Shown: positions 511-44,699 of the stretch, one piece after another
Layout: each line of letters starts with the position of its first letter
How positions within the stretch are numbered: position 1 is the stretch's first letter
From: Pontederia crassipes
Taxonomy: Eukaryota; Streptophyta; Magnoliopsida; Commelinales; Pontederiaceae
Direction: 5' to 3'
Assembly (NCBI GenBank): GCA_030549335.1
Contig: CM060195.1
Coordinates: 31,996,874-32,060,873 of the forward strand
Length of the DNA stretch: 64,000 nt
The notes under the pieces: model-generated
The model's input: the letters and a program-made list of their open reading frames with translations, nothing else
Told to the model about the DNA's origin: nothing
The model's database searches: none
Made by a program: the position numbers and the translations under genes

Positions 511-644
511 AAGAAACACAGCGCGCTCCAACAACTCCTGCAGCAGCAAGAAACACAGCCCTGCAGCAGCAAGAAACACAGCGCGCTCCAAGAACTCCTG
601 CAGCAGCAAGAAACACAGCGCGCTCCAAGAACTCCTGCAGCAGC
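511..644 (+). repeat. 37-bp minisatellite in the 5' leader of copy A
   Basis: Four tandem units begin with AAGAAACACAG and end with CTGCAGCAGC, at 511-547, 548-570 (shortened to 23 bp), 571-607 and 608-644. The array stops four bases before the ATG, so it is probably transcribed as 5' UTR. Copy C carries three units, so copy number changed after the segmental duplication. Confidence 0.85.
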
Positions 645-648
645 GACA

Positions 649-2040: not shown

Positions 2041-2614
2041 TAGCTCAACTAAGGTGCCCAAATTTAAAAAAGAAAAAGACATCCAAGTAAAACCAATTTA
2101 ATATGTTCTTAAAGCATCAAATTGTTTTATACCATCAACGTAATGAATAGATAGGAGGAACATGCAATTATAACAGTCTGGCATAAAAAGTTATTAACAC
2201 TACAAAACTGTATTAAAACTTCCTTAGTGTAACATAATTCCTTTTTCCTTTTCTCAATAGCTTTGCATATCAATTCATGCTAATATCTGTTCCATGTTAC
2301 TGATCATATGTCTGACCAATTCATGTAGGTTCATTATGAGTGCACATATTCATGATTTCTAGACAAAAAATGTTATTGGTATAGCCATGTAAGGATTCTT
2401 CTTTATATATGTACTGCTAGTATCCTAGTAGGCATGTGTATTCCATTTTGACTTTTCTGCATCATATATATTTCTGTTTCATATATACTTGGTTGTAGAG
2501 CTGTATTATTATTATTATTAGTTCCATGGCTCGTTGTTGGTTTTTTAGCATCTTTGAGACGTCCACAGAATTTACTTAATTGCTTTCCTGACATAACAAA
2601 GCTTGGAGTCTGCC
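2041..2614. other. 3' flank of copy A
   Basis: AT-rich sequence conserved downstream of all four CDC20-like copies (2041, 22196, 34944, 53594). No clear AATAAA close to the stop was found; AATGAA occurs near 2141. It includes a short (ATT)n run at 2504-2520 that is strongly expanded at the equivalent site in B (22600-22657) and D (54000-54045). Confidence 0.6.
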
Positions 2615-5580: not shown

Positions 5581-6950
5581 AATTTAAGCTATATGTTGAA
5601 ACTTGGACATTGTTAAATAGTGTTTTGAGATTCTAGTGATTCTCAATATATTCGTCCACTTCATCCTGAAAATAAGTTTCGTTCTACTCTTAGCAGCTAC
5701 AGAAAGCTCCCCATAATTGTATATTATGTTGAAGATGTACACTCTAATTGCTGGATTCACATAGTTTGATTAACATGTTATTCGAAAATCTTTTCCTTCC
5801 TCGTATACTAGTATCATTTGTACTAGATACATCTCTCTTCCCTTGTCCTTGGACATGTAAATTATAAGCATAAGGATCTATAATTCCCTCTACTGGCCAT
5901 TTAATCTTATACTACAGTTTCTATTTCCTTTACTGGCTTCTTAAGCCTATGCCTTGTCAATTCTCTCATAGTGTCGTATCACATTTGGATATGTAGGAAT
6001 ACACTTTGCTATCACAAGGATTACATACTTATGACAAGAACGATCAGCTTCTGAACTAGCATTGCCTAGTTTGTCTTGTCTGCTTTGGGTCGCATTCTAT
6101 TCTTGAGCTTCTGCAAGCTTGTTGTCCTCGGATTGATGCATGGCCTTAATTTTCATTTTGTTTAAGATATGCTCTTCTTTCTCCGATCCCCATGGCTGTA
6201 TCAAAACGTCCATATATCCTGTTTAGGGATGGAATAGAACTGAATTGGGTGTGAGACTTGTCATATTGCATGGCACAGAAGTCTGACTGTATTCAGACTT
6301 GGCATCACATGTAGACTTAGTTCTACTTGACTTTATGATATTACTTACCATGACTGTTCGAATTCTGCCTTCTAAGATGGGGACTTGATGCAACAATCAT
6401 TGGCGGCCCTCCTTTATGAGTTCTACATATTACTTACCATGACTTTATGATATTTTACTTTGGCGGCTGTCCTTTTACCCCTAAAAAAATCTCCATTATC
6501 CAAATTTACACAGTGATCATGCCTGCAAATACAAATTCATTTTTCATAGTGTATCGTAATTCCCTTTTCTTTTTCTCAATAGCTTTGGACATTTATAAAA
6601 GAGATTAGCTATTTATTCTATGTTTATTTCCTACTATTGATTTGAGGATTCTTCCTTTTCTTCTACCACTCAATTTTACCAGAATTGCACAGAATAGCAA
6701 AAAGAATGAATTGTATCTATGGAATTTAATAATGGATACAAAGTACAAAATAGTTTCCAAAGCATGAATAGTAAATAGTTTATGACCAAATGAGGAGGAC
6801 AATTAGTAACCTAATTGTTTACCAAGTATTCTTTCAATGAATAAAATGATTGTTTGCAAAGTTTACTTGCACATTTTATTTCATGAATTTTTTTGGAACA
6901 AATGTAACATTATGGACCATGGTTGCTTAAAAATTAATTACTAGGTTGCT
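5581..6950. other. Intergenic block between two relic copies
   Basis: AT-rich and without a supported gene. It aligns with 27660-28418 (B, partial), 38160-39550 (C) and 56930-58319 (D). Several short open stretches occur on both strands but none shows family motifs or conserved frames. Confidence 0.5.
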
Positions 6951-8110
6951 TTAGATTACCTTCTTGTCATAGACTGCTTTGCCTTGGAGAAACCTTTGTT
7001 GATTGTGCCATTTTCCTAGTCCTCTATATTGTTTCTGTAGGTTGCTTTTGTTGGTGATATTCTAGTAAAAAAGAAGGCCATAAGCAGGTAATCGAGATGG
7101 CATTATCTACTTAATTTGCAAATAAATAATCAATATTTTCTTGTCTCTTTCCTTCTAGTTTTTCTTTCAGAAATTATTTAATGCATAGATGGACTATGAT
7201 GAAAATTATTTGAGTTTTTTCTTTTATGATGGAGTATTTAATGCATAGACGCATAAAAAAAATATCTAACTAAATAATTCATAAAGGAAAAACTTGCTGA
7301 TTACTCTCTTTGGCTTTAAGTGTTACAATTTTAACAACATCCTATGTTGTTCATTATGCAGGAAAGGGAGATCCTATATAGCTTAAATGAGGTAAAATGC
7401 AGCTATATTTTCATCAAGTTAAAAAAAACATTAGAGAGATTTCATAAGAATGTGGTTCAAAACTTATTTGAGGTAATAAAATTGATCCTTTGTAAGTGGT
7501 AAGTGCAATTTTATAAATTGGCGCTTTCCTGATAGAATGCTTTAGATTTTGTTATATATAATGGATTCACATGTAACCACAAGTTACCATTTATTTTTTC
7601 TAACTCTAGTGTCAAAGAAGTCTGTCCTCTTAATAATTTAGTTTGAGGATTAGTGTGCAGCTCATTCAACCATTTGTCACTTGTTTGTTGGTTACCATGA
7701 CTTTGGTGAAGTATGGACCATTAAATGTGATTGGCCAATTTATCTTGAGAGCAATGCTATCAACGATATTGGCATTTCTTTGGTCTCTTGAACTGGGATA
7801 TGTGATATGTAGAGATCAGTTATTGTGATTCATCAAGCTAGATACATGTTGAATGACCTTATGTACTCATTGGGGGTGCACCAAAGTACTAGCGAGATCA
7901 ATTTTTTAGTGCTGTTAGTTTTTGTTACACGATGTTTTTTGAGCTTGTTAATCTATGTTGAATTTAGATATTGTTGTTTTGTCTGGGTTTTGCATCCAGA
8001 TTCAGATGCTTCGAGCTAAAAATCACATTCTTCAATTTACATAATAATTTTACATTATCCTCTTGTTTAATGAATAAAGTTCTGGAAATTCGATATGTAG
8101 TTTGAGGTAT
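6951..8110 (+). pseudogene. Relic of the same unrecognised gene, copy A2
   Basis: A second, divergent copy of the membrane-protein gene relic. It keeps one fully open exon-like block, 7362-7472 (37 codons), preceded by a pyrimidine-rich tract and CAG and followed by a GTAATA donor; it starts EREILYSLNEVKCSYIF and ends NVVQNLFE. The preceding block at about 6953-7086 carries an in-frame stop. The last block (about 7650-8019) is hydrophobic, contains ARYMLNDLMYSLGVHQS, ends at a stop at 8019, and is followed by AATAAA near 8075. No known family was recognised. Confidence 0.5.
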
Positions 8111-8577
8111 ATGATGAATGTTTCTTGGGCATTGTTAAATACAATTTTGAGATTTTAGTGATTCTCAATATATTTCGTCCACTTAATCCTGAAAATAAGT
8201 TTTGTTTCTACTCTTAGCAGCTACAGCGTATGAAAGCTCCCCATAAAAGTTTATTATGTTGAAGGTATAGAACATAATTGCTGGATTCGCATAACTTGGT
8301 TAACCTGTTATTCGAAAATATTTTCCCTTGTCCTTGAACATGTAAATTATAAACCCAAGGATTTCTAACTTCTCTGTTGGCCATTTTATCTTATACTGCA
8401 GTTTCTATTTACTTTATGTGGATTCTTAAGCTTTGTGACAAGAACGAACTTTTTCTGGATGAACTTTTCCTAGTTTGTCATGTCATTCTATTCTTGAGCT
8501 GCTGCAATCTTATTGACCTCGGATTGATGCATGACGTTAATTTGCATTTTCTTTGCAATGAAGATATGCTTTTCTTC
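8111..8577. other. 3' flank of the relic gene, LINE target region
   Basis: Collinear with 25306-25775, 40725-41191 and 62165-62655. No gene was found beyond short uncharacterised ORFs. The LINE fragment inserts at its right edge, after GATATGCTTTTCTTC. Confidence 0.5.
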
Positions 8578-9449
8578 AACTCCGCCTATATTTTATAGCC
8601 GGTCCCAAGCTCGGATAAAGGAGGATGGTTGTGTTAGGCCCCGAAAGCTAGCTTAAAATCCTGTCGAATCTTATGAACATGGATCAACGAATATATTGTG
8701 TTAATGCTAGGTTGTTACCCGTAAGTAACGCGCTGTACAGCTCGGGTACAGTGATAAGAGAGCAAGAGCCGCTGCATCCTCGCCTGAATGCAGTGTTAAA
8801 TGAGTAAGGGCTATCGCACTCTAATGGACGGAGGCGGTTAAAGAAGCTAGTTCATGAGACTAATGTCAGATTAGGTTCTTGGAATATTGGGACGTTGAAT
8901 GGGAAGCGTCTCGAGGTGGCACAAGTAATGGACCAGCGTAAGATTAATATCTTATGCTTGCAAAAAACTAGATGGGTAGGAGAGGAAAGTAAAGAGATTA
9001 GGTTAAATGGTTTCAAATTTTGGTACACAGGTAAGGTAAATGGAAGGAATGGTGTTGGTATTATCGCGGATGCAGAATGGAGGAAGAATGTTGTGGAAGT
9101 TAAAAGGATTGAGAATCGAATCATATCCGTGAAAGTAATTGTTGAAAAGAAGACTATGAACATTATTAGTGCATATGCACCCCAAGTAGGAGCAGAATCA
9201 CATCTCAAGGAGAAGTTTTGGGCAGATATGGAGGGTTTGATTGAAAGTATACCAACAACCGAGAAAGTTTATATTGGGGGAGACCTTAATAGACATGTTG
9301 GTAAAGAGGCAGGACCACATGCAAGGGTTCATGGTGGTTTTGGTTTTGGGGAGTTGAATGAGGAAGGACAAACTATTATTGATTTTTCTTTAGCATACGA
9401 CCTTAAGATTATTAACACTTGTTTTAGGAAGAGAGAGGAACATTTAATC
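8578..9449 (+). mobile_element. RTE-clade LINE, 5' fragment with endonuclease domain
   Basis: The 5' UTR starts AACTCCGCCTATATTTT. An APE-type endonuclease frame runs from about 8865 to 9449. It shows GSWNIGTLNGK, NGVGIIADAEW, NIISAYAPQVG, GGDLNRHVG and the region around FRKREEH, which is the typical layout of plant RTE elements. The family's catalytic Glu in QETKW is replaced here by Lys (LQKTRWVGE). The reverse transcriptase and 3' end are absent. The element breaks off abruptly into sequence that in D lies about 340 bp downstream of the insertion point. LINEs usually lose their 5' end, so a lost 3' end points to a later deletion. Confidence 0.85.
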
Positions 9450-10418
9450 GAAGTAATCGAAGAAAGAACTAGATTATGTCTTGCACAGAAAGTTGTCGAG
9501 TAAAATTCCATGAAAGTTTCTTTACCGTAGCATAATTCCTTTTTCTCGATTGCTTTGCATATCAATTCAAGTTAATGTTTGTTCAACGTTATTGATACCA
9601 TGTTGATGATCTCTTATTACAAATTCATGTGCATTCATCATGAGTGCACGTGCTGATATTTCGGGAAAAAATAATTCTGCAATGTTGGGGATATTTCTTC
9701 ATGTAGGTAGAAGGCTTTGTGCATGTGTGTTTGCATCATCTGTATGTCTTCTATTATCATTTTAAGAAGTTTCATGCTTTCTTTTTTTTCTGGAAGAAAC
9801 CTAAGATGTTCATTTAGTACCATGTCTTAGTACATATTCAAGAGTCTTAGCATATCTATAAAGGAGATCAGCCATCTCATTGTATGTTTATTTCCTTCTA
9901 TTCATTTCAGATTCTTCCTTCTATCAATCAATTTTACCGGAATCACACGTAATAACAAAAAGTATCTATAGAATTGAAAAATGGATACATAATGCAAGAT
10001 AGTTTCCAAAGCAAGAATAGCAGGTAGTTCATGACCAACTGAGGAGGACAATTAGTAACCTAATTTCTTGCCAAGTATTTTTTTCAACGAATAAAATGAT
10101 TGTTTGCAGAATTTATTTCCGCAATTCATTTTATGATTTTTTATCGAATGATTGTAGCATTATGGACCATAACTACTTAAAAATTGATTGCTTAATTGCA
10201 TTAGTTCACCTTCCATTAGCTTTGCCCTTGTAAAAGCCTTTGTTAATTGTGGAGGTCATAAAAAGGTAATTGAGATGACATGATCTACTTTATTTGCAAT
10301 AAATTGATTGAGGTTTCTGTCTTTAATATTTTTCTTTTTACATCTGGTTTTTCTTTTGGAAATTATTTAGCACATAGATGGAATATGAAGAAATTTATTT
10401 GTGTTTTTTTTTTCTTGT
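9450..10418. other. Downstream repeat block R4
   Basis: AT-rich, collinear with 26120-27077 (B) and 62999-63953 (D), and distantly similar to blocks at about 2700-3540 and 3600-4700 in the same locus. It appears to be a degenerate intron or flank copy of the relic gene. No open exon was identified. It is missing from C, where a deletion joins the LINE to the MITE. Confidence 0.5.
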
Positions 10419-12290: not shown

Positions 12291-15232
12291 TTAGCGTAAG
12301 ATCCCGTGCGATGCACGGGGGCATAAGAAAATAATCATATAAAAATTTTAAAAATTATTAGTTGTATAAAGAAACAGGTAACTATAAATAAATAAAACAT
12401 AATAAATGGAGAAAAAAGAAACGTATAAAATATTTATCACCAAATAATTTCTTCTTATCAACATTGGTTTCATTAAATAACTGGTATCTTCTAATACTGG
12501 TTATTTGGGTGAAAGTTGATTACACTTTATGTCTTGTATACTTCAAATACAAAATATTTGACTCACCACAAAATTTTTCATCATGTACACTCTTAGTACG
12601 AATAAATGATTTATTGATTTTCCAATTGCAGTATGAATGTGACCTCCCTACATAATGGAAAAAAGAGTAAATTTTTATAATATAATTATGTATTTTAATA
12701 TAATATATTTTTGTTGATACTTTTTCATCATGTAATATTATTTTGATGAAGTATGTATTATTAGGATTACTACGATTGGATACATCTGACAATCTAATCA
12801 TACAAAATTTGATATTTCATTACATCTTAGATAAATTTGTATTAGAGATGAAGTCAATATTCTCGGCCACAATTCATCAGAATAAACTTTAAAAAATATT
12901 GAAAGTAATATATGTTACTATGAATAAAAAAAATATCATGATATATAGTGAAATCAATGTAGTCACTTGCTAGATCTCTTTTTCTCATCTTAACATTAAA
13001 AATTTTGCATGTACAATTATATACAAAATTGCTCTATCAATTTACTAATACTATATGCTTTCAATATTATGCCATGAAAAAAGATTCTATAATAACTTTA
13101 AATATAAGACACTTTATATAATGCAATAGACATTATTTGTACCATAGATTTATTTATTTATTAATCATTGTTATTAATCAAAGAAAATATAAATAGAAAA
13201 AAATCTCTACTAAAAACACTCGATAAAAGATTCAAACGCTTAAAATTGTGATTAAAATTGTAAAAAAATGAAAATAATTATTACTTGTGATAACAATGTA
13301 AAAAATATGATTTTCATAGTGATATAAAAAAAACTATTAATAACTACCCTTCCATCAAAAAAGGATAAAAAATGTATAAATTAAGTGAAAAAAATACTAA
13401 TATATGATGACTATGTGTCTTTTTATCCTCTTTACATGTCTTCTTCTTGTTAGAGCTAATAACAATTATTATGTGTTTTATATGTGAGGTAGATAATGAC
13501 TGAAAAAATTATTTCACTTAGAGTAGTTGAATAATTTGTTATGGAAAAGACTTTTATTTATAATTGTTGAATAATTTGTTATTAGTCCATTAAATATCTT
13601 AATCTATTAAGAATCTGTTAATAATAATAATAACAACAATAGAACGAATAAGTTTGGTAAAAAAAACTAAGTTATTCTCTAATTATATATCTTATATTGG
13701 TTTATTACGAACATCCAACAATAATAACGTAATTATGAATCCTTATTGTTTCATATTCCAAAATGATTGATATACTTAAGTCTTCTATAATGATAATTTG
13801 ATAATAAAAATAATTGTATAAAAATAAAAAATGTTAGCCTAAAGAACATATGATTATAAATATTATTATCACAAAATTATATCATCTATTTCATATATGA
13901 GAGATTACATAAAAAAACTATAATTTATAATAGTTAAAAAATTTGTTTAACCTCTACTTATATGTAGATATATAGACATACAAATATACATATAATAATA
14001 ATTTAACAAATTGATAATAATAATAATAAATGATTAAGTTCGGTTGATTATTTTGTTATTAATTGATTACATATCCATTATCGATTATAATAAACCATGA
14101 CATATAGATAAACATATAATAATAAATTATGAAATTAATAATATTGATATTAATAAGAGAATGATTAAGTATGATTGATTATTTTATTAGTAGTTGTTTA
14201 AGTATCATACATCAATTTATAACAAACTATTCAATAATAAAAAATAATTATGAATTTTAATTGTTAAATTATTGATGTAGTTAAATCTTCTATCGTTGTG
14301 ATATAATAACAACTTGATAACAATAAAAAATAACTATATGCAACTAAAAAATGTATTAGTAGAAATAATATATTATTATACATATTACAACACTAAAATA
14401 TATCATTTATTTCATACATTATTGATTATCATTATTAGTTATAGAAAAAATCTTTCATTTTATATTAGTTGAAAATTTTGTTATTAGTTCATTAGAATAT
14501 CTTAACCAATTAACAATATGTAATAGAATAAATAAGTTTAGTTGAATCTTAGTTATTAACTGATTCCATATCTTATATTAGTTTATGTCCAATAATAATA
14601 ACTTATTTATGAATCTTAATCATTTCATATCCTAAAGTTATTGGCATAGTTAGGCCTTCTATAATAACAAAAAAAATACTTGTATACAACTAAAAAATGT
14701 TAACATAGATATTATATTATAATAAATATTATTATCACAAAATTATATCAACTATTTCATATATTATTAGTTACATAAACAACTTTAATTTATAGTAGTT
14801 GAATAATCAACTTTAACCTCCCTCTTTCTCTCTCTCTATAACAAAATGATTAACTAATTACATATCCTATATTAGTCATAATAAACTATGACATATAGAT
14901 AAACATATAATAATAAATTAACAAACTATTATTAATAATAAGAGAATGATTAAGTTTTGTTAATTATTTTGTTATTAGTTGATTACGTATGATGAACTAT
15001 CCAATAATAATAAAATGATTACGAATCATAGTTGTCAAATGATTGATATATGAAACTCTTCTATATCCTTAATAGAATAACGACTTAACAAACAATAACT
15101 ATATACAACTAAAAATTATTAGTAGAAATAACATAAGATTATAAATATTATTAACACTATCATTTAGTTCATATATTCTTGATTTTAAAAATCACTTAGT
15201 ATTTGAATAATTTGTTTAAAGTCTCTCTCTCT

Positions 15233-15282
<50 letters not shown>

Positions 15283-16981
15283 GATACATATTATCATAAT
15301 AATATATTTAAAACTTTGATGATACTTGAAATGCATGCCTTTGACTCGAACTTCAAATCATAAGATAATATTTGGTTTCAAAGAGGGCATCAGGTATGCA
15401 AATGGAAACTAAAAGTCCCTTATAACATTTAATATTTTTTATGAGGCAAAGAGAATTTGAATATAAGTATTTTTCTTCATAACATTTAATATTATTAATC
15501 ATACAAAACTATTATCTATAAGTATTTTTTTCTCATGCACAAACTTATATTTGTCAATCGCACGTATACTTTGTCTTTAAAGAAGGCATATTCACAAATG
15601 AAAATTGAAAACTCCTCTATTTATAGTTACAAGTATAGAATTTAAAATTCTAAATAAATTACAACATTTTAATAACTAACTTTTGAATATTCATGATTAC
15701 ATAATTAAAATATTATTGTTTTATAACAAATTATTCAATAATAACATGATCACAAATCTTAGTTGTTTGATATTCTAAAATAATTGATGTACGTAAATTT
15801 TCTATCTCCTTTATAGAACACCAAACTCATAACAATAAAAAATAACTATATACAACTAAAAATTATTAATAGAAATAATATATGATTATAAATATTATTA
15901 ACACAAAAATATATGAATTATTTCACATATTAATTATACTAATAAAATAATTAAGTTTAGTTGATTATTTTATTATTAACTAATTATGCTTCCTATATTG
16001 GTTTATAACAAACTATCCGATAGTAACAACATGATTACAAATTTTAGTTGTTTGATATTCTAAAATGATTGATATATGTAAATCTTCTATCGCCTTCATA
16101 GCATAACAACCTGATAACAATAAAAAATAATATATATAATTCATAATTATTAGTATAAATTATATATGAGAATAAATATTATTAAACAAAAAATATATGA
16201 TTTATTTCGTATATCATTGGCGGTAGAAAAAATCTTTCACACACACACATATATATACACACACATATATATACAGATAAAGAGATGTATAAGATGTAGA
16301 TACATATATGCTTATCTTTATTTGTATATATAAGATGTAGATATATATCTGCATACACAGCTACTTATCTGTATCCTATTAATCATAATTATAGTATGAA
16401 ATGCATATCTATAACTCGAACTTTATAAAATTTGTCTTTCCTTATATAAAAATTATAATATTTAATTTTTATTAGACAAAGAGAAATTATATAAGAGTAC
16501 TTTTTTTTATTGTGCACAGACTTATATTTGTGGGTCCTCACATACTCTTTGCCTTTAAGAAAGTGTCGAGTATACAAATATAAATTAAAAGCTCCATATA
16601 ACATTTAATATTTTTATTATAGGAGAGAAATTATATATTTTTTTTATCATGCACAGACCTATATTTGTAGGTCCGCACAAACTTTTTCCTCCAAGAGAAG
16701 GCATCAAGTATGCAAATGAAACTAAAAGTCCCTCTATTTATAGTTACAAATATATAATTTAAAAATATAAATAAATAAAATAAAATTATATATATTTTTA
16801 ATAATAAACTTTTGAGTTTTCATAATTATATAATTAAAATATTATTCTTTTATACATTCAACTTATGAGAGCTCGACACGTGGCACTTTCAATATACATA
16901 TAGATATAGATAGATATTTTTTAATAACTAACGTTTGAGTATCCATGATTATATAATTATAATATTATCACTTTATATATT
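12291..16981 (-). mobile_element. Non-autonomous Helitron, 5' end missing (unit 1)
   Basis: Lies on the minus strand. Its 3' terminus is CTAA (12294-12291), preceded by a 7+3+7 hairpin at 12303-12319, and it sits against a host A as Helitrons do. The interior is AT-rich with no Rep/helicase ORF. It contains about six irregular copies of a segment around AACAATAAAAAATAACTATA (near 13800, 14316, 14665, 15089, 15828, 16103). The 5' terminus seen in unit 2 is lost here. Helitron sequence fuses at 16981 to the neighbouring tandem repeat over a TATATT microhomology. An internal copy of the 5' end remains at about 16860-16918. Confidence 0.8.
12303..12319 (-). other. Helitron 3' subterminal hairpin (unit 1)
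   Basis: CCCGTGC-GAT-GCACGGG, a perfect 7-bp stem with a 3-nt loop. It lies 8 nt before the CTAA terminus on the element strand, the usual position of the Helitron 3' hairpin. The unit 2 counterpart is CTCGTGC-GAT-GCACGAG, with both strands of one pair changed. Confidence 0.85.
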
Positions 16982-18330
16982 AAATGAAATGAATGTTAAT
17001 GGTACTTCATAATAATCATATTATTATAAACATTTTGGCGAATTCATTTTAAACTATTGTTATATAAGTGTTTTAGTTTTTAGAAGTTGGGCCTATTAAG
17101 GCTTATGGTTCGAGGAAATTGCCAAGCCAAGCAGTTGAATATGAATCTAACTAGTCTAAATGGCTCAATCAGTCCAAGGATTTTAGACTGACTCACAAAT
17201 TGTCTAAACACTCACATCGCGATCAAATTAGTTCGACTAGCTAGTTCGGTTTTACAACATGTCCTACCTGTAGTACCTTGTTGAAAATCCAAAGCTATCT
17301 AGCTTTACTTTCTTCTCTTTGTTTTTTCCTCTTTTTCTGCCATTAGTTCTTTTTTAACTCTCATATAAATCTTTATCAAAACAACATGACAAACCAGATT
17401 AATTAAGTTATGAATTGATTTTTGGATTTGAATTTGGAGGTACAAAATCTAAATTAGGACATAAGATCTTAGATTTGACATAATTCTTATTTAGTTTTAA
17501 AACATTATTTCAATATATTTTTATTTTTCTAAATTTTCATGAAGTAAAAATATTTTTTAATATATAAAATTTGGAGGATGACAATTAGTTATAATTATTT
17601 TTTAAAAAAAATCATAAAAATAAATTTAAGCCAATTTATATTCAATCAAATGTATATTAATTGTACTACATAATAATCATAGAATTATAAATGTTTTGGT
17701 TAATTAATATAAAACTACTATTACGTAATTGTTTCTAATTTTAGAAGTCGGGTTTATTAATTTTAATGGTTTGAGAAAAACATCCGATGTGCCATTTGAA
17801 CTTGGGTTTGACGATCGTAGACTTACTCATAGATGATCTAAATACCTAGATCACAGTCAAATCGATTCGACTGGCCTGTCCCTCTAGTCCAAATTTTACA
17901 ACGAGTCTTCTCTTTTTGCATTACTGAAAATCCAAATCTAGCTAGCTTAATATGTTCTCTTCTTTTTCCCCCTTTTTATACCCCTAGTTCTTTTTTAACT
18001 CTCCTACTCTTCTGATTTGAAAACAACAAGGCAAGCAAATTAATATGTTGTGAACTAATTTTTAGGATTTGAATTTGGAGGGTCAAGCTCTCAATCAGTA
18101 CATGTCAGTACATGTGATCATAGATTTGAGATAATTGTGATCTGGATTTTGAATATTGGCTCAATCACTCTAACAACTCTAGACTAGCTCACTGATCGTC
18201 TAAACACTCAGATCACAATTAGATCAATTTGACTAGCCGGTCCGTTGCAGATTTTACAACGAGTCCTACTTGCCTTACTGCATTACCTTGTTGAAAATTC
18301 AAACCAAGCTAGCTTTAACTTGTTAATGGT
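16982..18330 (+). repeat. Tandem repeat array, about 650-bp units (unit 1)
   Basis: Units begin near TGGTTCGAGGAAATTGCC (17105) and TGGTTTGAGAAAAACATCC (17767), with a partial third unit from about 18150. Shared landmarks are GACT..CTCAC..GTCTAAACACTCA, TTGTTGAAAATCCAAA, CCATTAGTTCTTTTTTAACT and TTTGAATTTGGAGG. The units have diverged strongly, so the array is old. No coding sequence was seen. Confidence 0.65.
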
Positions 18331-20088
18331 AGGACTAATGACAAATCTTCATGTTTAAAGACTCAGCTATTTTTTTTCCACAAAAAAATATCTTCATGCT
18401 TCCTTGTCTAATTATCTCATGAGCCAAATGAACAGCCCACCAAATTAAACTTTAACTTTGGGAGGAATTAAACTTTAAACCCTATAAAAGAGATAAAAAA
18501 AATAACTTAAAAGAAATTTCTTTTCCTCCACCTAATCCACCTCTTTTCTAGTTGGCGTCGCTGTGTCGTGACCTTCTCTAGTTGCATATTCACAAGTAAG
18601 ATATCTATTAAGCCGGCCTTCTCTATTACGATCCATCCGTAATTATTAAGGGATTAGGTTGTCAATAAATTAACGTCGGTATTTCAGAAAGATTTTTCTT
18701 TCCATCATGAATTTCATAAAAAATTGCGAAGAATGTTTATTCGTTGAAACTATATGATAGAAATTCTCAATTTTCTTGTAGTGAGATAAACACTTGAGAA
18801 TATCTACTCGCGTGATCTAAATAGTTGGATTGATATAAAAAATGTTAGAAATAACTGAGTGAGCAAAATAACTCAAAAAGCTTATAGTTCATAACCTAAA
18901 TGTTATCAACTAATTAATTCAGAGAAACATTAAAAGGCATATATATTCATAGTATCAAGCAACAAATATTCACATAACTAAAAACTAATAAATACAACAT
19001 TTTGATAAGAAACTTTACACTCATATTGCAATCAATATTATTTAAAATAATATTAAACATATATATGCATATGCTGCACTTCATATGAATGCACGAATTC
19101 TCAATTGACCAATATGCATAATCTATAAGCGAATTCTAAAAGTGACTCATATAAATTTTAAAAGTGTCATCTTTACCGTGACTTCTTACGATGTAGTACT
19201 TAACTTTGGATGATACTTAGCTCCATTCTAAATCATCTCTAATTGAAGAATATATTAAAAAGTGATAAGTGACTTCTAAAAGTAGCCCTATGAATTCTAG
19301 ATTGTTATTAAGAGTACAACAAAATAAAAAAGAATTTTAGATGGAAAGATAATAAAATATAATTATGATTTAAGTGAAAAACAAATTTAGACCATTATGT
19401 TGGTAATAATGTATTCAATAAAATCAAATTACTATATAAGCTAACATCTGGTAACAAATAATAATTATTAAATTAGTTTATCATTTTTTTAATAATTTAT
19501 ATATTACATTAATCTCTAATAATTATAAATAGTATTATTATATAAAAAATTAATTAAATATAGTTGTACCGATTAAACTCGGTTGGTCTACTGATTTGAT
19601 CTTACATTAGTCTTAAAAACATTTAGTCTTTTTGTGCCGGTAGTCATCGCGCTCAGGAAGAGAGAGAAAACAAGTGAGGAGGATGTTCATGCTTCATGGG
19701 TTTGGGAGACGACCAACTCCTTGGGTCATATTTATATGTCTTGCTCCTTTAATCTAATTATAATTAAAGTCTTATTTAAAACTGATTTAATCTTATCCCG
19801 ATCTAATTTGAATTTTCACTTTATATATTATTTAAATTCATAATTTAAATTTAAATGGACCAAGTTTTCAGAATTAACTAAATTACTAATACCAACACCT
19901 ATTAATTTTTTAAACTTAAATATTAAATATTATTAAAAATACTTGCTAAAATATATTTAGGCTTAAAATTCTTAATTCTATTCTAATTACGAATCATTTA
20001 TCATATACTGTTCTAATCCCGTTAGCGGCCCTATCAATCTCTCTCGCTCTCTGTGCAAGCGCACTCAAAAATCCTGCAGCAAGATCAA
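18331..20088. other. Upstream region of pseudogene B
   Basis: Nearly identical to 49916-51663 before D. From about 18640 onward it is also homologous to 29440-33500 before C. So A/C and B/D promoters share an origin. The leader just before the ATG differs: a CT-rich stretch (about 20038-20052) and GCAAGCGCACTC in place of the 37-bp repeats. No convincing TATA box was found. A CACTA terminus lies inside it. Confidence 0.55.
18600..18783 (-). mobile_element. CACTA-type terminal relic upstream of B
   Basis: Read on the minus strand, the element starts at 18783 with CACTACAAGAAAATTGAG, the classic En/Spm terminus, followed by subterminal sequence with remnants of CCGACG-type motifs. The other terminus was not found. 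Equivalent ends occur at 29543 and 50364. Confidence 0.6.
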
Positions 20089-22195
20089 ATGGCGCCGCGG
20101 ATCGCTTCCCCTTCTTTCTCCTCCTCCTCTTCTTTCTCTTCTTCTCCTTCTCCTTCTCCTTCTTCTTCTGCGGCCGCCGGCGCTGTTGCTGGATTCAAGC
20201 CCTACGTTCCTTCGCTGCGCACCTCGTCCTCCTCTTGGTCCAAGAACGACATCGGAGGCGACCGCTTCATCCCCGTCCGCCTTCCCGGCTCCGCCCACTA
20301 CTTGCCTATCACCAAGAAGCTGCCGCAGCATCCTCCTCCCCCTCAAAATTCTTCTACAGGAGGGCGCTCGCCGACGCTTGTCTGCGCGATCGCGTCCTCA
20401 CCTTCAGAGTTCGTCCCGTTGCCCGTCTAGGGCCGCTGGAGGAGGAGTCGAAGCCGGAAGCGAAGCAGAGAACGACGAAGTGGTCAGAAGAATCTGCACA
20501 AAATTTCCAGAGCATTACAGATTCATCAGGAGATGCTGAGGCGGGATCGGGACTTTGGGATGTGAATAGAGCTCGGTCCTAATGCCCTATGAGTTCAGTA
20601 CCTCTGTAAGGAGAAAACCTCAGCATCCCCAGTGTCCGCAGATTTCAGGAAGCATCCGGTGAAGGTATTCCAGAATTTGATACAGCAATCATCACTGTTC
20701 CCGCCGGATGCAAGAAGGTTGCTCTAGAAACGACACCAGGCAAGGGCTTTGACCATGGATGTGTGGTCGGTCATCCTGTGCAGCCACGGTTTCCTATGGA
20801 CCTGTCGAAGTGGTCATGCAAATGTCCCATACATGAAATAGGTCGACATTGCCTTCGCTCGCGAGATGCCGCCCTGAGTCGGACCACCTCAGATGTCTCC
20901 GTCTCGCGAGATGCCGCCCCGAGTCGGACCACCTCAGATGTCTTGGTTTGCATGACTGGAGACTCCAACCGGAGATCGTGTAGGAGTATCTCACAGTCGG
21001 GTCCGCCTGTAGCAAGAATGTTGTCGTCCTTCCAAGCGATCGACGTTACTTCGGTGTCGAAGTTCAGGTCGGAGTTGGAAAAGACTATGTGCGTTCGACG
21101 GGAATCAAAGTCAAATATATCGAGATTGCCTGAGGGGATAAGACCAATTGCAATGTTCTGCCCGTCGGGAGACCAGCCGAGACTCTGGTTCGCTTAAGGC
21201 ACCGTCCGAGATTCTTAACATGCCCGGTATATAGGACAACTTCTACCTCAACCCGCTCGATTGGGGCAGTTCCAATGTGCTCGTCATCGCCCACGGCAAC
21301 ACCGTCTTCCTCTAGGACGATTCCAAGAAGTCCACCATCGGCCATGTGTTGCGTGGACTACCCCGTCACCAGTCTCGGCTGGTCTCCCGACGGGCAGAAC
21401 ATCGCGATTGGTCTTATCCCCTCAGGCAATCTCGAGATATTTGACTTGGATTCCCGTCGAACGCGCAGAGTCTTGTCCGACTCCGACCTGAACTTTGGCA
21501 CCCGAGTCACCTCGCTCGCTTTGAAGGACGAGAACATTCTTGCTACAGCGGACCCGACTGTGAGATACTCCTACGCGATCTTCGGTTGGAGTCTCCTGTC
21601 GTGCAAACCTTCCGCGGCGGTCACGACCGAGACATCTGCGCCCTGAAGTGGTCCGACTCGGGGCGGCATCTCGCGAGCGGAGGCGATGTCGACCTACTTC
21701 ATGTATGGGACATTTGCATGACCACTTCGACGGCCCATAGGAAACCGTGGCTGCACAGGATGACCGACCACACATCCACGGTCAAAGCCCTTGCCTGGTG
21801 TCCTTTCCAGAGCAACCTTCTTGCATCCGGCGGGAACAGTGATGATTGCTGCATCAAATTCTGGAACACCTCCACCGGATTCTTGCTGAACTCTGCGGAC
21901 ACGGGGGTGCTGAGGTTTTCTCCTTACAGTGGAGTAGGCACGCGCACCAGCTGATCAGCTCTCATGGAGGTCCTCGCAACCAACTTAACGTCTGGAGGTA
22001 CCCTTCCATGGCTAAGGCCGGTGAGCTCATAGGGCATCAGGACCGAGCTCTGTTCACATCCCAAAGTCCCGATGGTTACACGGTGGCCTCAGCATCTCCT
22101 GTGTAATGCTCTGGAAATTTTGTGCATATTCTTCTGAGGTGCCCAAGCCCAAGGTTCCAAATTGGGGTCCTTTTTCCAGCTCTAGCCCAGGTGAT
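20089..22195 (+). pseudogene. CDC20-like pseudogene B, with internal inverted repeat
   Basis: The start ATGGCGCCGCGG opens a Ser-rich N-terminus that joins the A-type sequence at SSSAAAGAVAGFKPYVPS and keeps the C-box. A 31-bp deletion (equivalent to A 829-859) shifts the frame soon after. The N-terminal part ends near 20600. There follows an inverted copy of WD40-coding sequence (20600-21188), then forward sequence from A position about 1018 onward. Further damage includes a 1-base loss after CTGCGGACACGGG, a 9-bp deletion near 22100 and loss of the IR-tail codons. The inverted insert, the 31-bp loss and the tail loss are shared with D and so predate the segmental duplication. No full-length activator can be made. 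Transcription is possible because the leader is conserved. Confidence 0.9.
20600..21188 (-). repeat. Inverted CDC20 segment in B (hairpin arm)
   Basis: The reverse complement of WD40 coding sequence equivalent to A 1194-1760. It faces the forward arm 21369-21930 across a 180-nt loop. A sampled 100-bp stretch is about 93% complementary and includes a 34-nt perfect run around GTCGAAGTGGTCATGCAAAT. A 44-bp tandem duplication lies at about 20859-20942. Its variants resemble the B/D lineage at several sites, so it was probably copied locally. Confidence 0.88.
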
Positions 22196-22597
22196 ACCTC
22201 AACTAAGGTGCCCAAATTTAAAAAAGAAAAAGACATCCAGTGCAACCAATTTAATATGTTCTTAAAGCATCAATTTTATTTATACCATCAACATAATGAA
22301 TAGATAGGAGGAACATGCAATTATAACAGTCTTGCATAAAAAGTTATTAACACTATAAAACTGTATTAAAGCTTCCTTAGTGTAACATAATTCCTTTTTC
22401 CTTTTCTCGATAGCTTTGCATATCAATTCATGCCAATATCTGTTCCATGTTACTGATCATATTGATGCTCTCTTCTGACCAATTCATGTAGGTTCATTAT
22501 GAGTGCACATATTCATGATTTCTAGAAAAAAATGTTATTGGTATAGCCATGTAAGGATTCTTTTTTGTATATGTATTGCTAGTAGCCTAGTAGAGCT

Positions 22598-22599
<2 letters not shown>

Positions 22600-22656
<57 letters not shown>

Positions 22657-22657
22657 T
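22600..22657. repeat. (ATT)n microsatellite, about 19 units
   Basis: A pure trinucleotide run. The A and C loci have only about five to six units at the equivalent position (2504, 35408), and D about fifteen (54000-54045). Confidence 0.95.
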
Positions 22658-23072
22658 CCATGGCTCATTGTTGGTTTTTTAGCATCTTTGGGACGTCCAC
22701 AGAATTTACTTAATTGCTTTCCTGACATAACAAAGCTTGGAGTCTGCCATGGCAGATGTTGTTGACTTAATGATTGTTGAGGAGGTCCAGTCAGATTGGT
22801 AAATCGTCTTGCATTTATCTTTTTCCTTTACGCAAGATTCATAAATTGTCTTCCATGAGATTCTTACAACTTAAGTAATCAATGAAGGAAGTAGATCAGT
22901 CCATCACATCATGGGTGCACATTTAGATCATTTTCAGGTAAAAAATATTGTGCAATGTAGGGGATATGTCTTCATGTAAGTGATAGGCGTGTGCGTGTAT
23001 CATATATATTTGTTTTCCTTTATCATTTTCAGGAAAGAAGTTTTGTGCTTTCTTTGTGCTTTCCTTTATCAT

Positions 23073-23255
23073 AACTCCGCCTATGTTTTATAGCCGGTCC
23101 CAAGCCCGGATAAAGGAGGAGGGTTGTGTTAGGCCCCGACAGCCAACGTAAAACCCTGTTGAATCTCATGAACATGGATCAACGAATGCGTCGTATGATC
23201 CATGTAGCCGACCCCACCTAGTGGGATAAGGCTTTGTTGTTATTGTTGTTGTTGT
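23073..23255 (+). mobile_element. RTE-derived short non-autonomous element, 5'+3' type (B only)
   Basis: The left module matches the 5' UTR of the LINE at 8578 (AACTCCGCCTATGTTTTATA onward to GGATCAACGAAT). It then jumps to a 3' module (ATGTAGCCGACCCC..GGGATAAGGC) ending in (TTG)n. A, C and D have the empty site at GTGCTTTCTTTG/TTTTCTTG. About 16 extra bases lie before the 5' end, and no clean target duplication can be defined. It was inserted after B and D separated, or was lost from D. Confidence 0.8.
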
Positions 23256-23570
23256 TTTTTTTGTTTTCTTGAAGACAATCAAGGATTTCCCTTGGTACTA
23301 TGTTGCACTTATACAAGTTCCAGAGACTTGGCATATTTATAAAAGAGATTAGCTACCTATTCTATGTTTATTTCCTGCTATTGATTTGAGGATTCTTTCA
23401 TTTCTTCAACCACTCAATTTAACCATAATTGCACAGAATAGCAAAAAGAATGAATTGTATGTACGGAATTTAAAAATGGATACACTATACCTAATTGAGA
23501 TGACATTATCTACCTAATTTGCAAATAAATACGCAATATTTTTTTTCTCTTTGCTTCTACTTTTTCTTTT

Positions 23571-23656
23571 TTACTAATAGAGCTGAATGGCGTCCTATGA
23601 CCCATGTAGCCGACCCCACCTAGTGGGATAAGGCTTTGTTGTTGTTGTTGTTGTTG
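23571..23656 (+). mobile_element. RTE-derived short element, 3' module only (B)
   Basis: The 86-bp element runs from TTACTAATAGAGC to (TTG)n. It is flanked by a perfect 20-bp target duplication TTGCTTCTACTTTTTCTTTT (23551-23570 and 23657-23676). D has a longer, differently built element at the same site, while A and C are empty. Confidence 0.85.
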
Positions 23657-25305
23657 TTGCTTCTACTTTTTCTTTTGGAAATTATTTAGTGCATAGATGG
23701 AAACTGATGATCTAGTCAGATCGTTAAATCATCTTTCGTTATGCGAGATTCTTACAACATAAGTAATCAAAGATAGAAGTAGATTAGTCTTCCAAATAAA
23801 GTTGTCAGGAGTAAAAGTCCATGATAGTTTCCTTACTGTGGCATAATTCCTGTTTTCAATTGATTTGCATATAAATTCAAGCTAATATTTGTTCCATGTT
23901 ACTGATACTATGTTGATGATCTCTTATTACTAATTCATGTGCATTCATCATGAGTGCACGTGCTGATATTTTCAGGAAAAAAATAATTCTCCAATGTTGG
24001 GGATATTTCTTCATGTAGGTAGAAGGCTCATATATGTTTGTCTTCTATTATCATTTTAAGGAAAGAAGTTTCATGCTTTCTTTTTTTTTTTCTGGAAGAA
24101 AACTAAGATGTTATTTTTTTTATGGAAGAAAACTAAGATGTCTTCTATTACCATGTCTTAGTACATATTCAAGAGTCCTTACATATTTATAAAGGAGATT
24201 AGCCATCTCATTCTATGATTATTTCCTTTTATTCATTTGACGATTCTTCCTTCTACCAAAAAATTTTACCGGAATCACATACAATAGCAAAAAGTATCTA
24301 GAGAAGTGAAAAATGGATACATAATGCAAAATAGTTTCCAAAGCATGCATAGGAAGTAGTTTCATGACCAAGTGAGGAAGACAATTAGTAACCTAATTGT
24401 TTACCAAGTATTTTTTTCAACTAATAAAATGATTATTGCAAAGTTTACTTGCATATTTTATTTTATGAAATTGTTTAAAGAACAAATGTAGCATAATAGT
24501 TGCTTAAAAATTGATTACTATATTGCTTTAGATTGTCTTCCAGCTTGACGGAGGGAGCTTTACCTTGGAAAACATTTTGCTGATTGTGTCTTTTTTCCTA
24601 GTCCTCTATATCATTTTTGTTGCTTGCCGTTGTTGGTGGTCAAAAGCTTATAAAGCGGAAGGCCATAAGAGGGTAATTGAGATGACATTATATGCTTAAT
24701 TTGCAAATAAATCTACTCAATTTATTCTCTTTAGTTGTACATTTTCTTTTGGAAATTATTTAATGCATAGATGGAATCTGATGAAATTTATTTGAGTTTT
24801 TTCGTTTAGGTAAAGGAATTCATAAAGAAAAAATTGCAGATTACTGGTTTTAGCATTTAAGCGTTACAATTTTAACAACATCCTAAGTTGTTTATTTTGC
24901 AGGAAAGGGAGATGATATATAGCTTAAACGAGGTGAAAGTAAATTAATATCGAATGCAGCTATATTTTCATTCAAACGTCAAAGAAAAACATTGGAGGAA
25001 TTTCATAGGAATGTGATTCAAAACTTATTTGAGGTAATAAAAAATATCCTTTATAAGTGGTATGAGCAATTTTATAATTTGGCGTTTTCCTGATAGCATG
25101 CTTTAGATTTTGTTACATGTAACGGATTGGCATATAAATCACAAGGTACTTTTTTTTGTGTTAACTCTAGTGTCAAGAATGTCTATAACCTTTGAATGAT
25201 TTAATTTCAGGATAGATGTGCAGCTCAAGCTGTTACCAATTCAAGAAGTTGCCACTTGTTTGTTGGTTACCATAACTTTGGTTGTAAATTGAAGTATGGA
25301 GCATT

Positions 25306-27077
25306 AAAAATTTGAGATTTTAGCGATTTTCAATATATTTCGTCCACTTAATCCTGAAAATAAGTTTTGTTTCTACTCTTAGCAGCTACAGGGTATGAAA
25401 GCTCCCCATAAGGGTTTATTATGTTGAAGGTATAGAACATAATTGCTGGATTCGCATAACTTGGTTAACCTGTTTTTCGAAAATATTTTCCTTCCTCTTA
25501 CACTAGTATCATTTGTACTGCATACATCTTTTCCCTTGTCCTTGAACATGTAAATTATAAACACAAGGATTTCTAACTTCTCTGTTGGCCATTTTATCCT
25601 ATACTGCAGTTTCTATTTACTTTATGTGGATTCTTAAGCTTTATGACAAGAACGAACTTTTTCTGAATGAGCTTCTCCTAGTTTGTCATGTCATTCTATT
25701 CTTGAGCTGCTGCAATCTTATTGACCTCGGATTGATGCATGACGTTAATTTGCATTTTCTTTGCAATGAAGATATGCCCCTCTTTACAGTCAAAACATCC
25801 ATATATCCTATTTAGGGATGGAGATTGGGGTGACACTTCTTGATGTATGTAGTGGTAGTAGGCATGAGTGTCAATGTGTTCAATCTACACTTTTCTGTGT
25901 CATATATATTTCTCTTGCATACTTGGTTGTAGAGCTGTATTTTCTTTATTTTCATAACACATTCTTGGTTTTCTGGCATCTGCGAGGCATTTACAGGATT
26001 TACTTAGTGTTTTGTTTACATAACAAAGCTTGGGGTCTGTCATGGCATATGTTGTTTTAATGATTGTTAAGGTGGTCCAGTCAGACTAGTAAATCATCTT
26101 CCAGCGAGATTCTTACAACCTAAGTAATCGAAGAAAGAACTAGATTATGTCTTGCACAGAAAGTTGTCGAGTAAAATTCCATGAAAGTTTCTTTACCGTA
26201 GCATAATTCCTTTTTCTCGATTGCTTTGCATATCAATTCAAGTTAATGTTTGTTCAACGTTATTGATACCATGTTGATGATCTCTTATTACAAATTCATG
26301 TGCATTCATCATGAGTGCACGTGCTGATATTTCGGGAAAAAATAATTCTGCAATGTTGGGGATATTTCTTCATGTAGGTAGAAGGCTTTGTGCATGTGTG
26401 TTTGCATCATCTGTATTTGTCTTCTATTATCATTTTAAGAAGTTTCATGCTTTCTTTTTTTCCTGGAAGAAAACTAAGATGTTCATTTAGTACCATGTCT
26501 TAGTACATATTCAAGAGTCCTAGCATATCTATAAAGGAGATCAGCCGTCTCATTGTATGTTTATTTCCTTCTATTCATTTCAGATTCTTCCTTCTACCGG
26601 AATCACACGTAATAACAAAAAGTATCTATAGAATTGAAAAATGGATACATAATGCAAGATAGTTTCCAAAGCAAGAATAGCAGGTAGTTCATGACCAACT
26701 GAGGAGGACAATTAGTAACCTAATTTCTTGCCAAGTATTTTTTTCAACGAATAAAATGATTGTTTGCAGAATTTATTTCCGCAATTCATTTTATGATTTT
26801 TTATCGAATGATTGTAGCATTATGGACCATAACTGCTTAAAAATTGATTGCTTAATTGCATTAGTTCACCTTCCATTAGCTTTGCCCTTGTAAAAGCCTT
26901 TGTTAATTGTGGAGGTCATAAAAAGGTAATTGAGATGACATGATCTACTTTATTTGCAATAAATTGATTGAGGTTTCTGTCTTTAATATTTTTCTTTTTA
27001 CATCTGGTTTTTCTTTTGGAAATTATTTAGCACATAGATGGAATATGAAGAAATTTATTTGTGTTTTTTTTTCTTGT
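25306..27077. other. Rearranged downstream blocks of B (3' flank type plus R4)
   Basis: 25306-26100 matches 62190-62990 of D, and in A only the part before the LINE. 26100-27077 is the R4 block. The left border jumps from sequence equivalent to A 5240 directly to sequence equivalent to A 8150, so about 2.9 kb present in A is missing here. No gene was found; short open stretches lack family features. Confidence 0.5.
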
Positions 27078-32276: not shown

Positions 32277-33398
32277 TATCTAATAACAAATAATAATTAT
32301 TAAATTACTTTATCATTTTTGTAATAATTATATATTATATTACCCTCAAATAATTATAAATAGTAATATTATATAAAAAAAAATGATTGAACTGGTTAAC
32401 ATTTGGTTGAACCGATTAAATCTTGACTCGATTGGTCTCCTGATTTGATCTTTCATTCATCTTTTAAAACATTAGTCGTGTATTGTCCAACAAATTGATG
32501 CATCTTTTGTGCCTGTAACCATCAAGAGATGAGAGAAAACAAGAGAGGAGAATGTTCATGGATTGGGGAGACGATCAACTCCTTGGGTAATATTTATAAG
32601 TCTTGCTCCTTTAATATAATTTTAATTCAAGTCTTATATAAAATTGATTTAATCTCATCCCGTCTAATTTGAATTCCCACTTTATCTATTATTTAAATTC
32701 ATAATTTAACTTTAAATGAACCAAAATTTCAGAATTAACTATATAACTAATATGAATACCTATTAATATTTTAAGTTAAATATTAAATATTATTAAATAC
32801 TTGCTAACATATATTTAGGCTTAAAATTCTTAATTCTATTCTAATTACGAATCATTTATTCATCAAACTTTTTTTGGATCTCGATTCAAATTCAAATCCT
32901 TAATTCCAATCAAATAAAAAATTTCACTCTACTTTTTTTTATAATTTTAAAATATAAATATTACATCATATAATAATACTAAATCATATAATTGAACTTA
33001 TCCTTTTCTTATAATTTTCACTCGCAATAAAAATTTAAATTAAAAAAAAAACTGACCAGCAAACCCATTGAAGACCTAAATAACTTAAATCAAATAATTA
33101 TAAATTAATTTTTATTTTTAATGATTATATTTCATCCAGTTATTAGCTTTTAGTGATTTTTTTTATATTTTGAATGCTTATATTTGAATTAAATTTCAGT
33201 GCAAGAAGAAATTAGGATAAAAACAATAAAAAAATAAAAATGGATGACTTTTTATCCAAAAATTAGTTTAGGTTTCTTTTTCAATTTAATATTTTTTGTT
33301 CTTCGTTATTATATATATTTGATAAATAACTTAAATAATAATAATAATAATAATAAATTACAATTATTTACTTAACGGCAAATCTCTGAGTCCCGCCC
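32277..33398. other. Proximal upstream region of C
   Basis: The first about 600 bp match 19440-20010 before B. From about 32930 it matches the start of the window before A. AT-rich with no ORF. The solo LTR lies just over 1.1 kb before the TATA box. Confidence 0.6.
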
Positions 33399-33406
33399 TA
33401 TTTATT
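33399..33406 (+). promoter_or_regulatory. Putative TATA box of copy C
   Basis: TATTTATT in the same context as before copy A (after GTCCCGCCC, before the CT-rich tract and the leader minisatellite). Confidence 0.45.
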
Positions 33407-33437
33407 CTTTATTCCCTCCCCCTCCCCACTCCCACAC

Positions 33438-33550
33438 AAGAAACACAGCGCGCTCCAAGAACTCCTGCAGCAGCAAGAAACACACAGCGCGCTCCAAGAA
33501 CTCCTGCAGCAGCAAGAAACACAGCGCGATCCAAGAACTCCTGCAGCAGC
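33438..33550 (+). repeat. 37-bp minisatellite in the 5' leader of copy C
   Basis: Three units at 33438-33474, 33475-33513 (with two extra bases) and 33514-33550, ending four bases before the ATG. Copy A has four. Confidence 0.85.
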
Positions 33551-33554
33551 GACA

Positions 33555-34943
33555 ATGTCTCCTTCTTCTTCTTCTGCGGCCGCCGGCGCTGTTGCTGGAT
33601 TCAATCCCTACGTTCCTTCGCTGCGCACCTCGTCCTCCTCTTGGTCCAAGAACGACATCGGAGGCGACCGCTTCATCCCCGTCCGCCTTCCCGGCTCCGC
33701 CCACTACTTGCCTATCACCAAGAAACCGGCGGCGGACGACGATGACGTGACAGAAGCTGCCGCAGCATCCTCCTCGCCCTCAAAATTCTTCTACAGGAGG
33801 GCGCTCGCCGACGCTTGTCTGCGCGATCGCGTCCTCACCTTCAGAGTTCGTCCCGTTGCCCATCCAGGGCCGCTGGAGGAGGAACCGAAGCCGGAAGCGA
33901 AGCAGACGAGGAAGTGGCGCCTCCCTAAGGCGCCGTCCGAGATTCTTGACATGCCCGGTATCCAGGACAACTTCTACCTCAACCTACTCGACTGGGGCAG
34001 TTCCAATGTGCTCGCCGTCGCTCACGGCGACACCGTCTTCCTTTGGGACGATTCCAAGAAGTCCACCATCGGCTCCATGTGTTACGTGGACTGTCCCGTC
34101 ACCAGTCTCGGCTGGTCTCCAGACGGGCAGAACATTGCAATTGGCCTTATCCCCTCTGGCAATCTCGAGGTATTTGACTTGGTTTCTCGTCGAACGCGCA
34201 GAGTCTTGTCCGACTCCGATCTGCACTTCGGCACCCGAGTCACGTCGCTCGCTTGGAAGGACGACAACGTTCTTGCTACAGCCGGACCGGACTGTGAGAT
34301 ACTCCTCCATGATCTCCGGTTGGAGTCTCCTATCGTGCAAACCTTCCGCGGCGGCCACGACGGAGATATCTGCGCCCTGAAATGGTCCGACTCGGGTCGG
34401 TATCTCGCGAGCGGAGGCGATGTCGACCTACTTCATATATGGGACGTCTGCATGACCACTTCGACGGCCCATAGGAAACCGTGGCTGCACAGGATGACCG
34501 ACCACACATCCACGGTCAAAGCCCTTGCCTGGTGTCCTTTCCAAAGCAACCTTCTTGCATCCGGCGGGAATTGCTGCATCAAATTCTGGAACACCTCCAC
34601 CGGATGTTTACTGAACTCTGTGGACACGGGTGGTGCTGAGGTTTTCTCCTTACAGTGGAGTAGGCATGCGCGCCAACTGATCAGCTCTCATGGAGGTCCT
34701 CGCAACCAACTTAACGTCTGGAGGTACCCTTCCATGGCTAAGGCCGGTGAGCTCATAGGGCATCAAGACCGAGCTTTGTTCACATCCCAAAGTCCCGATG
34801 GTTACACTGTGGCCTCAGCATCTCCTGATGAGTCTGTAATGCTCTGGAAATTTTGTGCAGATTCTTCTGAGGTGCCCAAGCCCAAGCCCAAGGTTCCAAA
34901 TTGGGGTCCTTTTTCCAGCTCGAGCTTCAGTCATATCAGGTGA
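33555..34943 (+). CDS. CDC20-like APC/C activator, copy C (462 aa, single exon)
   Basis: A near-identical duplicate of copy A with the same C-box (DRFIPVR), MAD2-binding-like segment, WD40 propeller and IR tail. Differences seen: K17 becomes N; a 9-bp deletion removes three residues from the loop [11 protein letters not shown], giving GGNCCIKF; a 6-bp gain turns KPKV into KPKPKV near the C-terminus; and SPDGY is kept where A has SPHGY. All indels are multiples of three, so the frame has been held, which argues for selection or for recent origin. Start and leader are as in A. The function is inferred from the family: cell-cycle substrate recruitment to APC/C. Confidence 0.88.
   Translation: MSPSSSSAAAGAVAGFNPYVPSLRTSSSSWSKNDIGGDRFIPVRLPGSAHYLPITKKPAADDDDVTEAAAASSSPSKFFYRRALADACLRDRVLTFRVRPVAHPGPLEEEPKPEAKQTRKWRLPKAPSEILDMPGIQDNFYLNLLDWGSSNVLAVAHGDTVFLWDDSKKSTIGSMCYVDCPVTSLGWSPDGQNIAIGLIPSGNLEVFDLVSRRTRRVLSDSDLHFGTRVTSLAWKDDNVLATAGPDCEILLHDLRLESPIVQTFRGGHDGDICALKWSDSGRYLASGGDVDLLHIWDVCMTTSTAHRKPWLHRMTDHTSTVKALAWCPFQSNLLASGGNCCIKFWNTSTGCLLNSVDTGGAEVFSLQWSRHARQLISSHGGPRNQLNVWRYPSMAKAGELIGHQDRALFTSQSPDGYTVASASPDESVMLWKFCADSSEVPKPKPKVPNWGPFSSSSFSHIR

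Positions 34944-44666: not shown

Positions 44667-44699
<33 letters not shown>

Follow-up and report, generated by a model that had tools for sequence, protein, structure and literature searches.

Can a dead gene copy that folds back on itself act on its intact relatives? CDC20 pseudogene B (20089–22195, + strand) raises this question within a 64,000-nt stretch of Pontederia crassipes DNA, hereafter the window. An earlier note had described B as a long inverted repeat and had proposed that hairpin RNA from it might silence intact CDC20 copies of the same cluster.

The coding region of B is broken near codon 121 by an inverted segment of about 0.71 kb (20484–21194). B runs colinear with the intact copy A as far as 20483 (A 1011), including the rest of the 5' CDC20 segment that leads to the insertion point (20431–20483, + strand; 88% identity between B 20149–20483 and A 652–1011), and it resumes at 21195 (A 1020). 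The inverted part of the insert spans 20484–21184 and is followed by about 10 nt of filler. It forms the left, antisense arm (20484–21184, − strand), an inverted CDC20 WD40 segment in two pieces (20484–20597 and 20601–21184) that matches A 1973–1851 and 1761–1198 and lacks the 89 nt separating A 1851 from A 1761. The right, sense arm (21371–22137, + strand) is the 3' half of the CDC20 WD40 region and also falls into two pieces (21371–21932 and 22022–22137), the intervening 89 nt (21933–22021) having no partner in the left arm. Between the arms lies a loop of 186 nt (21185–21370, + strand), made up of the filler and a CDC20 segment leading to the right arm, with two in-frame TAG stops. A tandem duplication with a 45-nt period within the left arm (20858–20898 and 20903–20943; span 20858–20943) forms a bulge in the hairpin.

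A BLAST comparison of 20601–21184 with 21932–21371 gave 721 bits and 87.9% identity with gaps, far above chance. The arms are about 93% alike and their longest perfect runs measure 44 and 43 nt. This score confirms the long inverted repeat of the earlier note and extends it: arms had been placed at 20600–21188 and 21369–21930 around a loop of 180 nt, which is the right place, but the true arms are longer and the loop 6 nt larger. The 34-nt perfect run that had been reported was found as well (left end 20837, right start 21698). With its CDC20 homology, a frame that ends at 113 aa, stops in the loop and an inverted insert, B has the features of a CDC20 pseudogene.

RNA folding had been suggested as a check and was run on 20484–22137. 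The predicted fold of this stretch reached −1285.0 kcal/mol, compared with −576.3 ± 12.3 kcal/mol for 20 dinucleotide shuffles (z = −57.7) and −556.3 kcal/mol for a control of the same length from copy A (384–2037, 1654 nt). In the predicted fold of B, 620 pairs join bases more than 150 nt apart, which is the extended duplex expected of a plant hpRNA locus, and 12 helices run for 21 bp or more without interruption, with 9 in the fold of its duplicate, D. When the part affected by the tandem duplication was masked (A 1405–1475), the 601 paired columns of B comprised 557 Watson-Crick, 15 G-U and 29 mismatched columns, and the 512 of D comprised 462, 20 and 30, respectively. A transcript spanning 20484–22137 would, on this model, form a long duplex. 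We also considered a known structured RNA or a known MIRNA family as the identity of the hairpin, and rejected both on a search of the window that returned no Rfam matches at the gathering score, although a new MIRNA would be absent from Rfam.

The 5' end that might drive such a transcript is only partly preserved. The claim that B keeps its start and leader holds for the ATG (20089), for the truncated 113-aa frame that follows (20089–20430, + strand; N-terminal CDC20 with C-box, then a frameshift and a stop) and for the leader from 20046 (20046–20088, + strand), which resembles that of the intact copy L010 (79% identity between B 20046–20160 and L010 2343–2468). It does not hold further upstream: the sequence before 20001 resembles the far flanks of copies C and E, and the roughly 600 nt that precede the ATG in those copies are missing, so that this A-type flank stands about 600 nt closer to the ATG of B. 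A single AACGG/CCGTT core, a putative motif, lies at −70 of B and may be there by chance. Copy D has a truncated 113-aa frame (51664–52005, + strand) with the same protein sequence as that of B. Within this shared frame, a block of 153 nt is identical to copies A and E; for B, this identity of the N-terminus suggests either that gene conversion has occurred recently or that the N-terminal peptide is conserved.

The hairpin exists twice, a fact to which the earlier note made no reference. D (51664–53594) contains the same insertion and junctions as B, with a left arm in two pieces (52059–52573, − strand; 52059–52389 and 52398–52573), a loop (52574–52762, + strand) and a right arm (52763–53536, + strand). 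Its left arm is about 190 nt shorter than that of B, the missing part corresponding to B 20815–21008. The window holds a large tandem segmental duplication (4–9449 versus 32931–42056; 13090–25308 versus 44156–56592), whose long blocks are 95.7–98.9% identical and in which the gene pairs A/C and B/D correspond; within this duplicate of about 32 kb, the offset is about 31.6 kb from B to D and 32.9 kb from A to C. Two frames in the duplicated unit (8808–9503 and 41829–42437) look like, and are presumably, fragments of a LINE-type endonuclease/reverse transcriptase. An assembly or long-read fold-back artefact was considered as a source of the hairpin and rejected as unlikely, because the arms, only about 93% alike, differ at many sites and because the changes in B and D are independent of each other.

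Searches of the 1.13-Gb assembly with both junction strings, allowing up to three mismatches, found two occurrences of each, at B and at D; hairpins with other junctions would be missed by such a search. L018, a pseudogene on C14 that belongs to the same clade as B, lacks the insert, but shows a separate gap of 9 nt at the same place. We fetched 20 other CDC20 family stretches and compared them for inverted pieces. The CDC20 pseudogene L017 (C13:32407900–32414900) carries a separate inverted piece of 162 nt (2467–2628 versus 3494–3647, 86% alike), with end points unlike those of B, and inverted matches in L016 (152 nt, 69%) and L020 (174 nt, 89%) lie outside the stretches that match B.

Where the inverted segment came from was addressed with a tree built from 30 WD40-segment sequences (ultrafast bootstrap) and with counts of derived states. 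The arms of B and D form one clade with L018 and L024 (99% ultrafast bootstrap), which adjoins L009/L010. On the branch preceding the split of B and D, the left arm has a length of 0.058 and the right arm of 0.008. Counting changes fixed in both B and D, with a misaligned stretch masked and the majority of 16 close copies as reference, 31 were found in the left arm only, seven in the right arm only and 13 in both arms (31 versus 7, p = 1.2e-4); a less strict count gave 37 and nine for the left and right arms. The left-only changes fall evenly on the three codon positions (9/12/10); eight of them recur among the 16 close copies, each in one copy or in two, with at most two in any one copy. Had the segment been copied from B itself, it would be expected to age at the pace of the right arm of B. 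The excess of changes in the left arm is most simply read as the mark of an insert whose source was a different copy, dead for a longer time, and the sequence comparisons suggest that an older dead copy of the pseudogene clade is the most likely source. A free-standing donor of the left arm was not found among the 40 candidates scored out of 77, the best match being 88%.

The insert could instead be a fold-back, by template switch, of the 3' half of B itself, with the right arm later overwritten by gene conversion from other copies. The 13 derived states common to both arms (against the majority of the 16 close copies), of which 11 are also present in L018, would fit such an event, and the N-terminal block that B shares with A and E suggests that conversion does take place in the cluster. 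Conversion of the right arm is possible, since no donor was found and the left arm is placed within the clade with only 66–71% support. Set against the fold-back are the numerical preponderance of left-only changes and the position of the right arm, which falls with L018 and L024 in the tree and apart from the intact copies, so that wholesale overwriting by an intact copy can be dismissed. On balance we regard a fold-back followed by conversion as rather unlikely, and prefer an origin from an older dead copy.

If the pairing of the arms served a function, it might have been guarded after the duplication. At the columns present in all four arms, 23 changes could be placed at paired positions since the split of B and D, and none of these 23 was compensatory. 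Thirteen broke a Watson-Crick pair, nine turned a Watson-Crick pair into G-U and one turned G-U into Watson-Crick; pairing was thus kept in nine of the 22 changes that started from Watson-Crick pairs. Together with the loss of part of an arm in D, the lack of compensatory changes argues against strong selection for pairing, albeit with little power: 23 changes are too small a sample to speak against weak constraint, and the duplex survived in both B and D. Substitutions between B and D peak at the centre of the hairpin (21009–21430 versus 52398–52821), with 22 in 419 sites compared with 67 in 5416 elsewhere (p = 1.8e-7), and the arm deletion of D lies at the edge of this cluster. Either mutation driven by the hairpin or conversion may account for the peak.

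The intact copies on which such a hairpin could act are many. The earlier note had counted two intact mitotic activators, and copies A (L029; 649–2040, + strand, 463 aa) and C (L031; 33555–34943, + strand, 462 aa) are indeed intact, intronless candidate targets: each has the CDC20/Fizzy WD40 region, C-box and IR tail, and they score 296 and 287 bits, respectively, against PF24807 (cut-off 200). This count nevertheless understated the family. Another full-length copy, E (L030), lies just outside the window at C13:32065224, and a search of the genome with the protein of copy A found at least 96 CDC20 places (92 of 242 candidates scored), at least 43 of which are full-length and open, that is, reach from residue 7 or earlier to residue 450 or later in one frame with no stop. 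Five more are full-length with stops, and another five are stop-free and start at residue 26 or 31. The places are distributed over C5, C6, C7, C8, C10, C13, C14 and C17, with arrays on C7, C8, C13 and C14; the full-length ones are intronless, and some places may be haplotype or homeologue pairs. Among the 30 loci L029–L058, the C-box was present in all and the IR end in 27. Pairwise dN/dS of intact copies was 0.13–0.41 (14 pairs), which suggests that constraint acts on them. A survey of seven land-plant species reports three to six CDC20 copies in each (PMC3095333), and the full-length open copies found here, at least 43, are about seven to fourteen times that reported number. In an amplified and rearranging family of this kind, the appearance of an inverted insert can be explained with no function behind it.

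Matches of siRNA length were counted for 15 targets drawn from the 96 CDC20 places. Of the 681 21-mers of the left arm of B, 71 match A perfectly, 57 match C, 57 match E and 136 match L037. Across the nine close copies (A, C, E and L032–L037, of which L032 has one stop), 51–136 match perfectly and 322–488 with up to two mismatches, compared with 0–7 and 48–122 across six distant copies (L038, L039, L040, L042, L046 and L055). The shorter left arm of D (495 21-mers) gave 39–70 perfect matches to the nine close copies and 2–7 to the six distant ones. Complementarity of siRNA length to intact genes, as expected of a plant hpRNA locus, is therefore present among these 15 targets.

These matches, the long and stable predicted duplex and the partly kept 5' end and leader are what speak for a working hpRNA locus, in which B, and perhaps D, would be transcribed and diced into 21–22-nt siRNAs that dampen, in some tissue, the dosage of intact CDC20 copies nearby. 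The model for such a locus is soybean, where an inverted repeat of CHS genes acts on CHS7/8. According to the soybean report, CHS7/8 are silenced in trans by an inverted repeat of genes just 82% similar to them (PMC3804491), and divergence alone is then no bar to silencing. Inverted pseudogene pairs in rice are likewise described as yielding siRNAs, but for the pair described in detail the same report notes that the parental gene gave no small RNAs (PMC2708354). The proposal that the hairpin silences its relatives, made in the earlier note, thus draws on a predicted duplex and on perfect 21-mers to A, C, E and L037, and is weakened by arm changes that went uncompensated, by the 13 broken pairs and by the arm loss in D. 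We consider a working hpRNA locus quite unlikely, and measurable silencing of intact CDC20 copies, judged from the sequence, would be still more surprising. That siRNAs arise from the hairpin in some tissue is a good deal easier to imagine from the predicted duplex, if short of what we would expect.

Small RNAs could also stay at home. Hairpin-derived or RDR2-type 24-nt siRNAs might methylate B and D only, as heterochromatin in cis, and keep these dead copies quiet while leaving the intact genes untouched. Among the antisense siRNAs of rice pseudogenes, 53.4% are reported to be 24-nt long (PMC2708354), and 19 of the 31 left-arm changes are C>T or G>A. The observed/expected CpG ratio of the arms (0.80–0.90), however, is near the value for the corresponding part of A and C (0.87–0.90), so that the arms bear no strong mark of long methylation. 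We think this outcome unlikely. A more far-reaching proposal, that CDC20 was amplified to dozens of intronless copies for a transmission or dosage advantage and that the hairpin of B and D is a recent arrival which silences one amplified clade in trans, would find parallels in the hpRNAs reported to suppress amplified drivers in Drosophila simulans (PMC10317233) or in the hairpin Tpd1 of Teosinte Pollen Drive (PMC11390486); we hold it to be very improbable.

Several characterised systems share parts of this architecture. The soybean I locus (CHS1-3-4 inverted repeat) is also an inverted duplicate of a gene family whose dsRNA could be homologous to intact relatives, but it is reported to consist of two perfect clusters of 10.91 kb, with sequenced siRNAs and a seed-coat phenotype (PMC3804491), whereas B has imperfect 0.7-kb arms inside one pseudogene. 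The rice pairs are closely spaced inverted pseudogene fragments of paralogues with a predicted hairpin, as in B, and their reported duplexes of 154–185 nt, which have mapped siRNAs (PMC2708354), are shorter than the stem of B. Mu killer is a partial inverted gene duplication for which a hairpin RNA was proposed; its target is a transposon, unlike the candidate targets of B, and its silencing is attributed to short antisense transcripts, with the long hairpin as a possible minor part (PMC3440606). Tpd1 exemplifies a long plant hairpin able to target a protein-coding gene, for which Dcl2-dependent siRNAs of 22 nt, data on cleavage and a drive phenotype are reported (PMC11390486). Under the inverted-duplication origin of plant MIRNA genes, arms similar to candidate targets, as in B, are the expected first stage (PMC3237417), although B differs from a MIRNA gene in having no known short foldback with a defined small RNA.

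Taken as a whole, the structure carries no sign of maintenance for silencing, and B and D, a dead copy with an inverted fragment that was then duplicated, are for this reason probably a by-product of the rearrangements that a fast-duplicating cluster of genes undergoes. In the sequence of events that we propose, an inverted fragment of about 0.7 kb from an older dead member of the clade would have interrupted the coding region of the dead CDC20 copy B, and D would then have arisen when the segmental duplication of about 32 kb took in the entire hairpin locus. Should transcription from the retained 5' end still run through the loop, its product would fold into a stem of about 0.6 kb that Dicer-like enzymes would cut into siRNAs. 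Those siRNAs would chiefly affect B and D themselves, could weakly hit the closest copies in trans (A, C, E and L033–L037) and would hardly act on distant copies such as L038, L039, L040, L042, L046 and L055. On these predictions, B would be an inverted-duplication hairpin pseudogene of a known kind, capable of yielding siRNAs if transcribed. Hairpins derived from genes have been described before; CDC20 as a target would be unusual. We know of no hairpin aimed at a mitotic APC/C activator, and a literature search, which covered titles and the starts of abstracts with subscription journals mostly outside its coverage, found no CDC20-targeting hairpin locus in plants.

Plant hairpin RNAs and new MIRNA genes are held to draw their raw material from inverted gene duplicates. 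A young case such as this one, with two copies that differ in arm length and stand beside intact relatives, is well suited to watching the first step of that process. If B is silent, it would be an instructive null case, in which a strong hairpin with near-perfect targets shows no sign of use; were B expressed, it would connect the dosage of a cell-cycle activator with RNA silencing.
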